DNA of 47,815 nt from positions 2,322,222 through 2,370,036 of the forward strand of contig CP070674.1 in assembly GCA_020351995.1 (NCBI GenBank). The letters are read 5' to 3'. Origin of the DNA: Candidatus Zixiibacteriota bacterium. Its GTDB lineage: Bacteria; Zixibacteria; MSB-5A5; GN15; FEB-12. Under the pieces are notes generated by a model. That model was given only the letters and a program-made list of their open reading frames with translations. It did no database searches and was not told the origin of the DNA. The translations under genes were made by a program, and so were the position numbers. Below, one piece after another: positions 22,115 through 23,878 of this stretch (its first letter is position 1; each line of letters begins with the position of its first letter).

Positions 22115-23878
22115 CTACCGGTTGAGCCGCAGGACTGTTCCGTCGTTACCGACCGCAAAAACGTCGCTCATAGCTGTACCCCATACAGCCCAGAGCGTTT
22201 GTCCCGTTTTGACCGGGGCCTCGTTCCAGGTACTCCCATTGTAATTAAAAAGAGCTCCGCGTGCGCCTACCACATAAATATCGGTTTCGGACATACCGAA
22301 AAGACCATTCAGTGTGTCTACAGGCAAACCGGCAATAACGCTCCAATTTTCACCTTTGCGGCGGGCAACCGTGCCATCAGTGCCGACTGCCAGAGCATAG
22401 CCGCTCCAGGAGGTCCAAACGGCCCGCAACGACATGGTGCCAAGGGTATCCTCGATTTTCCACTCGTCGCCATCGAAATGCAGCACAATACCCGAATCGC
22501 CGACAGCAAAGGCAAAAGCCTCGGAATTACCGGAAATTCCCATAAGGTTAACCGTAGTTTCGCTTTTGTCCTGGTACCATGATTGACCGTCGTAGTGGGC
22601 AATATGGCCTTCCTGGCCGACCCCGTATATGTTTGTGCTGCTGGTGCCCCAGACACCGAAAAGGTCTCTCATATTGCCTGCTGTCTGCCGGCTCCATCCG
22701 CTTCCATCGTAGTGAACAACCATGCCGCGCTGCCCTACGGCGAAGATATCAGTCGCGGAAACCCCCCAGACTGCGTAAAGGGAGAGCCCGGTGGAACTGT
22801 TCATGGGGCTGAAATTTGACCCGTCAAAGTGATAAATAACTCCCGAAGCACCTACCGTATAAACATTTCCGGGCGATGTTCCCCACACCCCTCTCAAATC
22901 ACCGGCAAGACCCCGCAGAGCCTCGTTCCAGCGCGTACCGTCGAATGACATTACGGTGCCGGTTTCACCAACTGCCAGGATCACTCCGCCGGAATTACCT
23001 CCAACGCCCCTGAGATCTGAGGAGGTGGATGCTGTCACTATGGTCCAATCGGAGCCGGAGTGACCGATGATGGCGCCGCCGTCCCCGACTGCCCAAAAAC
23101 TTGTGTCGGAGGTCGGCCACACACCGCGCAGATCCTCAACCGTCGGACTGGTCAACGTGGACCACGTGGCCCCGTCGTAGACCACGACTGTGCCGTCACT
23201 GCCCACAGCGGTAGCATTGGAGGAAGAAACTCCCCTGATGCTGTACAGAGAAAGAGACGTTCCGCTGGACATGGTCTGCCAGGCGGAACCGTTGTAATGG
23301 ATAATCTCTCCACCCGAGCCGACCGCGAATACTCTATCGGAAGAGCTTCCCCAAACCGAATTAAGAGTTTCCGACGTTACGGTGTTGGCGAGGCGCCAGG
23401 ACGCTCCGTCAAAATGCAGTACTGTTCCGGCGCCGCCCACGGCGTAAATATCTTGAGCGGAAAAGCCCCATACACTGTGAAGGTTCTCCGAGGTTGGAGT
23501 GGCGACCAACTGCCAGTCGTCTCCGTCAAAATGGAAAATCGTCCCACCATCACCGACCGCGAAAAGGTTGCCAAATGAGCTCCCCCAGATGCCGTTCAGA
23601 GCGACAGGAGCACCGCAGTACTCGGCTGTCCAGCGAACGCCGTCAAAGCGAAGGATTGTTCCCACGTCGCCGACCGCCAGAGCCTGTCCGTTAGTGCCTA
23701 CCCAAATATCATGGAGTTGAGCCCCCGTGGTCAAAAGCTCCCACTCGCCGTCGGGCACGGGTCCCGGACCCAACGGGTGGTCCGACTCGTTACCGCACGA
23801 GGCCGTCAGCAGCCCCAGCATCAATGCGCCAATAAATATCCGGAGCGCTTTCTTTTGTCGGTCAGTAGTGATATACAA
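22115..23878 (-). CDS. Lipoprotein with 14 gap-free 39-residue beta-propeller repeats
   Basis: The 587-residue protein probably starts at a TTG (23878) preceded by GAGGGG. This gives a lipoprotein signal (RQKKALRIFIGALMLGLL then TASC, lipid on C28). From residue 55 to the end it consists of 14 repeats of exactly 39 residues with no insertion or deletion. The repeat pattern is L-x-x-V-W-G, then AVG-x-x-G-T, then HFDG-x-x-W. Repeat 14 stops after 26 residues, before the W strand. The segment before repeat 1 (GEWELLTTGAQ) looks like that missing strand, so the ends probably close on each other. It is an envelope-anchored propeller, likely a binding scaffold. No catalytic residue is visible. Confidence 0.85.
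   Translation of the reverse strand: MYITTDRQKKALRIFIGALMLGLLTASCGNESDHPLGPGPVPDGEWELLTTGAQLHDIWVGTNGQALAVGDVGTILRFDGVRWTAEYCGAPVALNGIWGSSFGNLFAVGDGGTIFHFDGDDWQLVATPTSENLHSVWGFSAQDIYAVGGAGTVLHFDGASWRLANTVTSETLNSVWGSSSDRVFAVGSGGEIIHYNGSAWQTMSSGTSLSLYSIRGVSSSNATAVGSDGTVVVYDGATWSTLTSPTVEDLRGVWPTSDTSFWAVGDGGAIIGHSGSDWTIVTASTSSDLRGVGGNSGGVILAVGETGTVMSFDGTRWNEALRGLAGDLRGVWGTSPGNVYTVGASGVIYHFDGSNFSPMNSSTGLSLYAVWGVSATDIFAVGQRGMVVHYDGSGWSRQTAGNMRDLFGVWGTSSTNIYGVGQEGHIAHYDGQSWYQDKSETTVNLMGISGNSEAFAFAVGDSGIVLHFDGDEWKIEDTLGTMSLRAVWTSWSGYALAVGTDGTVARRKGENWSVIAGLPVDTLNGLFGMSETDIYVVGARGALFNYNGSTWNEAPVKTGQTLWAVWGTAMSDVFAVGNDGTVLRLNR
22118..23716 (-). repeat. 14 tandem coding repeats, 117-base period
   Basis: The repeats encode residues 55-587 of the propeller lipoprotein. 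Thirteen full units of 39 codons and a final one of 26 keep phase throughout. DNA copies have diverged, so conservation is at the protein level and recent duplication is unlikely. Confidence 0.85.

Follow-up and report, generated by a model that had tools for sequence, protein, structure and literature searches.

Among the genes of the window, i.e., the whole stretch of 47,815 nucleotides analysed here from a Candidatus Zixiibacteriota bacterium, one on the minus strand encodes a protein consisting almost entirely of propeller-like repeats of a single length, the last of which stops short of a strand that the N-terminus seems to supply. As such, it raises the question of the ring, or rings, into which the blades close. 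An earlier note on this DNA took the repeat pattern to imply ring closure and admitted two readings, namely one ring of fourteen blades, which would be unusual, or two seven-bladed propellers. The features on which the question turns are collected in Table 1.

Table 1. Features of the repeat protein, in positions of the window and residues of the protein
Feature	Position	Strand	Residues	Basis or remarks
Gene for 14-blade lipoprotein	22115..23878	-		587 aa; TTG start; stop at 22115-22117
Lipobox LTASC with predicted lipidated Cys28	23795..23809	-	24-28	Cys invariant in aligned family members (14/14)
N-terminal W strand (WELLTT), candidate closing strand	23726..23743	-	46-51	W46 invariant (14/14)
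Blades 1-7, predicted first seven-bladed propeller	22925..23743	-	46-318	39-residue period; model and match to whole 2YMU
Blade 7/8 junction, predicted domain boundary	22892..23044	-	279-329	dip in model confidence; interval 7-8 most variable in relatives
Blades 8-14, predicted second seven-bladed propeller	22118..22924	-	319-587	322-587 superpose over their full length on single seven-bladed propellers
Blade 14, without its own fourth (W) strand	22118..22222	-	553-587	sequence register; model ends with three strands

A repetitive lipoprotein and its gene

The reading frame is uninterrupted across its 587 codons and is a real gene, with syntenic orthologues in two congeneric species, which are respectively 51% and 43% identical to the window protein (tblastn) and share its chromosomal position, flanked by rluB and a TPR gene. 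Since the neighbours trpS, scpA, scpB and rluB, in that order, are 66-78% identical between these species, the propeller evolves faster. No copy was found in the genome of a third species of the genus (L089, L090), where rluB and the TPR gene nonetheless remain together, separated by about 730 bases; the gene, present or absent within the genus, thus appears dispensable. A paralogue was sought in its own genome and none was found, and the nearest neighbouring genes, which are housekeeping or general, indicate no partner protein.

As judged by eye, the protein begins with a signal peptide followed by a lipobox ending in cysteine, the hallmark of bacterial lipoproteins, and with this cysteine conserved throughout the 14-sequence family alignment the assignment as a lipoprotein made in the earlier note is supported. 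Lipidation is predicted at Cys28, before which signal peptidase II would cleave, and it is because of this lipobox that the protein is expected to be anchored to the envelope, the lipid holding it through the linker of about 17 residues that separates Cys28 from W46. The rule by which Asp at position +2 governs lipoprotein sorting is taken from E. coli; as no Asp stands at +2, the location is probably the outer membrane, to the extent that this rule, uncertain in this phylum, applies.

From residue 46 onwards, the sequence is divided into fourteen blades with an exact period of 39 residues, i.e., 13 complete rows and a shortened fourteenth of 35 residues, all in register and without indel. In a self-comparison, identity amounts to 32-37% at every multiple of 39 from 39 to 429 and to 20% at 468, against a background averaging about 8%, with 14.5% at the best offset that is not a multiple of 39. 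Mutual identity of the blades is about 33%, and columns 10, 24, 25 and 28, namely L, V, G and G, are identical in all fourteen. The fourteen 39-residue repeats without indel described earlier are thus borne out by self-comparison and register alike, as are, by the register, the exact length of the thirteen full repeats and the end of the last one before the W strand. In both syntenic orthologues all 13 intervals are exactly 39 residues long; indels are present in more distant 14-blade relatives, and the indel-free repeat is therefore no rule of the family.

The blade family occurs widely in this phylum; the window protein escapes both Pfam and NCBIfam, the search of which gave no significant match. 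In particular, the window protein has no match to PF14870 (PSII_BNR) above its gathering score, and none of the 14 family members matches it at E 0.1. Among PDB entries, a profile of the 14 relatives nevertheless detects Ycf48 (best E 8.9e-11), a seven-bladed lipoprotein (PMC10403576; PMC8038367) acting in photosystem II assembly and sharing with the window protein, besides its lipoprotein character, the blade plan W..L..V....AVG..G. This profile link, together with the seven-bladed structural matches given below, supports the earlier reading of the repeats as propeller blades. Differences lie in the single seven-bladed ring of Ycf48 and in the blades of its Pfam-recognised relatives, which have 41 residues and carry the Asp-box SxDxGxTW instead of HYDGxxW, the hairpin of the 39-residue type. 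Canonical Asp-boxes in the hairpin of third and fourth strands number zero in the window protein, which has 11 copies of [DN]Gxx[WF]. The 39-residue blade would thus represent a sister type, shorter in its hairpin, to the blades of the Ycf48/Asp-box lineage.

Number and size of the predicted rings

Complete relatives with the 39-residue blade have either fourteen blades (n = 23, window protein included) or seven (n = 11), and no intact one with six or eight was found among those counted. Counts were corrected where a double-length interval contained a divergent blade that had escaped the blade profile, and no P value is attached to them because the sample is non-independent, its members sharing ancestry and having been searched with a 14-blade query. 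The sole other case of this type, in which 5 blades lie in one frame and 9 in an adjacent, overlapping one (L015:426-2145), is in all likelihood a single 14-blade gene that a frameshift has split. Exactly seven blades also make up the C-terminal domain behind metallopeptidase domains in peptidase-like proteins (L027 and L070) and, in the 39-residue type, occur between other domains inside proteins of two viral contigs (L086:7963-8805, 350 kb; L078:7710-8567, 260 kb), which are probably virion or tail proteins. Given these seven-blade forms and domains, seven stands out as the natural closed unit, and the near restriction of the intact 39-residue type to 7 or 14 blades offers a clean natural case of ring size held during blade amplification. 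In the 41-residue type, counts are again mostly 14 or 7, with one complete protein of 12 and one of 10.

Regarding structure, AlphaFold2 run on the single sequence gave a poor model (pLDDT 64.7), ambiguous as to the split, the best matches of which covered about residues 288-587 and included eight-bladed proteins. A second model was built on an alignment of two 14-blade sequences, namely the window protein and L080 (37% identical, aligned full length), from which seven-blade relatives were kept out since their own gaps would mark the blade 7 boundary; mosaic placements by MAFFT were rejected for this alignment. It shows two confident halves (mean pLDDT 78.7, pTM 0.50), with block pLDDT falling to 49-57 at the blade 7/8 junction (model residues 241-290, residues 280-329 of the protein), the lowest outside the N-terminus, versus 73-91 in the 40-residue flanks. 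At Z 30-31 and 2.2-2.3 A, residues 322-587, i.e., 266 residues and seven blades, the last with three strands, align gap-free to single seven-bladed propellers, among which are Gbeta and the designed WRAP-T. The Foldseek top match of the model is 2YMU (E 1.5e-21, TM 0.59), which aligns with the whole chain over 534 residues (Z 30.8, rmsd 7.7 A); the comparison of the first ring with known folds was made mainly via 2YMU and other tandem-propeller chains. Interval 7-8 is, moreover, the one that departs most often from 39 residues among relatives (12/19).

In 2YMU, fourteen blades form two 7-bladed propellers (PMC6805158; PMC9218822). This structure, WRAP, is the C-terminal part of Npun_R6612 from Nostoc punctiforme and, like the window protein, holds its 14 consecutive blades without a linker; it differs in being of the WD40 type, with nearly identical blades and as part of a STAND protein, whereas the window protein is a lipoprotein with another type of blade. 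On the blade counts, the halves of the model with their match to 2YMU, and the profile link to Ycf48, the window protein is very probably a lipoprotein with two consecutive seven-bladed beta-propellers and no inserted linker, blades 1-7 folding as the first ring and blades 8-14 as the second, the mutual orientation of which is uncertain in the model. The tandem 7+7 arrangement in the manner of 2YMU is supported by the confidence dip and the best match, both obtained from the two-sequence alignment. Of the two readings first admitted, it is hence the pair of seven-bladed propellers that these lines of evidence favour.

Against two rings of seven weigh the narrow basis of a two-sequence model, the 12- and 10-blade members of the 41-residue type, and the absence of any special likeness between blade i and blade i+7, sought as the trace of one ancestral doubling of a seven-blade unit; across proteins, N half pairs with N half and C half with C half, clearly only among close relatives. 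As propeller ring size can vary, two unequal rings, e.g., 6+8, would suit the low-confidence single-sequence model, best aligned over about 300 residues to chains some of which are eight-bladed. The gap-free alignment of exactly seven blades in the better model and the want of intact six- or eight-blade relatives in the counts make this quite improbable. Linear repetition alone would also be served by an open beta-solenoid or an unclosed string of blades, a reading that closed seven-bladed matches at Z 31 and the profile relation to Ycf48 render highly improbable.

Closure of the rings

The case for a single closed ring of fourteen, in which W46 would complete blade 14, starts from the N-terminal W strand and the missing last W strand, both of which fit it, as does the fact that blades 7 and 8 of the window protein follow each other with neither linker nor indel. 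Seven-blade relatives, however, have the same N-terminal W strand and the same missing last W strand; since the closure grammar is identical in both, the sequence argument applies equally to seven-blade rings, and closure of all fourteen blades no longer follows from it. The jump in blade counts from 7 to 14, the superposition of the second half of the model, over its entire length, on seven-bladed propellers and of the whole on 2YMU, and a pTM of only 0.50 with confident halves, which fits two domains of uncertain mutual orientation, likewise stand against the single ring, and structures deposited by 2019 span four to twelve blades (PMC6805158). A ring of fourteen is accordingly rated highly improbable: it does not follow from a perfect 14-fold repeat and a closing strand, and the structural question is largely settled.

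The earlier note had proposed a structure prediction in which terminal strands lying in one sheet would favour closure of the whole and two separate propellers would contradict it. The second of these outcomes is nearly reached, with two halves and a second one matching single seven-bladed propellers, except that the model does not fix which strands close each ring. The closing strand placed at the N-terminus by the same note keeps the backing of the sequence grammar and of the invariant W46, which is joined to the following strand by a loop two residues shorter than those of the internal repeats, but lies in the low-pLDDT part of the model. W317 is modelled as a short strand, and the alignments of the second ring begin after it, at residue 322. 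Simple closure, with W46 as the last strand of blade 7 and W317 as that of blade 14, is what the seven-blade relatives would suggest. Alternatively, W317 could complete blade 7 locally while W46, attached to ring 1, reaches across to complete blade 14 in the other ring; such a strand exchange tying the rings together is unlikely but, if true, would bring both termini into one sheet without a 14-blade ring.

Possible role and wider occurrence

Besides WRAP, the GH74 xyloglucanases provide a likeness to the predicted two seven-bladed rings, as their Asp-box repeats run on without interruption and fold into 7+7 tandem propellers (PMC2716378); these are enzymes, and no family match of the window protein to them was found. 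Other propeller lipoproteins act by binding: Ycf48 binds nascent D1 (PMC10403576), and BtuG, as outlined in PMC6143338 and PMC10404256, acts in surface vitamin B12 capture with the BtuB transporter. By analogy, the two rings could offer a rigid scaffold to which a partner protein or a ligand binds, and an envelope-anchored scaffold of this kind is the most likely role, with an even chance of being the right one.

Beyond cellular genomes, no match to the family was obtained in the phage records searched, and weak YCF48-like matches occur in a few plasmids, mostly rhizobial. A contig from a viral collection encodes the 1443-residue protein used in the second model (L080:9213-13541), in which 14 blades precede repeated Ig-like-looking domains and a C-terminal membrane segment.

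Within the phylum itself, lipoproteins with 41-residue, Asp-box-like blades (L053:962-4913, L061, L066 and L073) resemble the window protein in their lipobox, N-terminal closing strand and mostly 14 blades. L053, L061 and L066, the three tested, differ from it by strong matches to PF14870, canonical or near-canonical Asp-boxes and near-identical blades, the number of which is sometimes 12 or 10 in this group. The four proteins have 14, 14, 10 and 12 blades, respectively, nearly identical within each protein, which look recently amplified, and L053 carries two such genes side by side.
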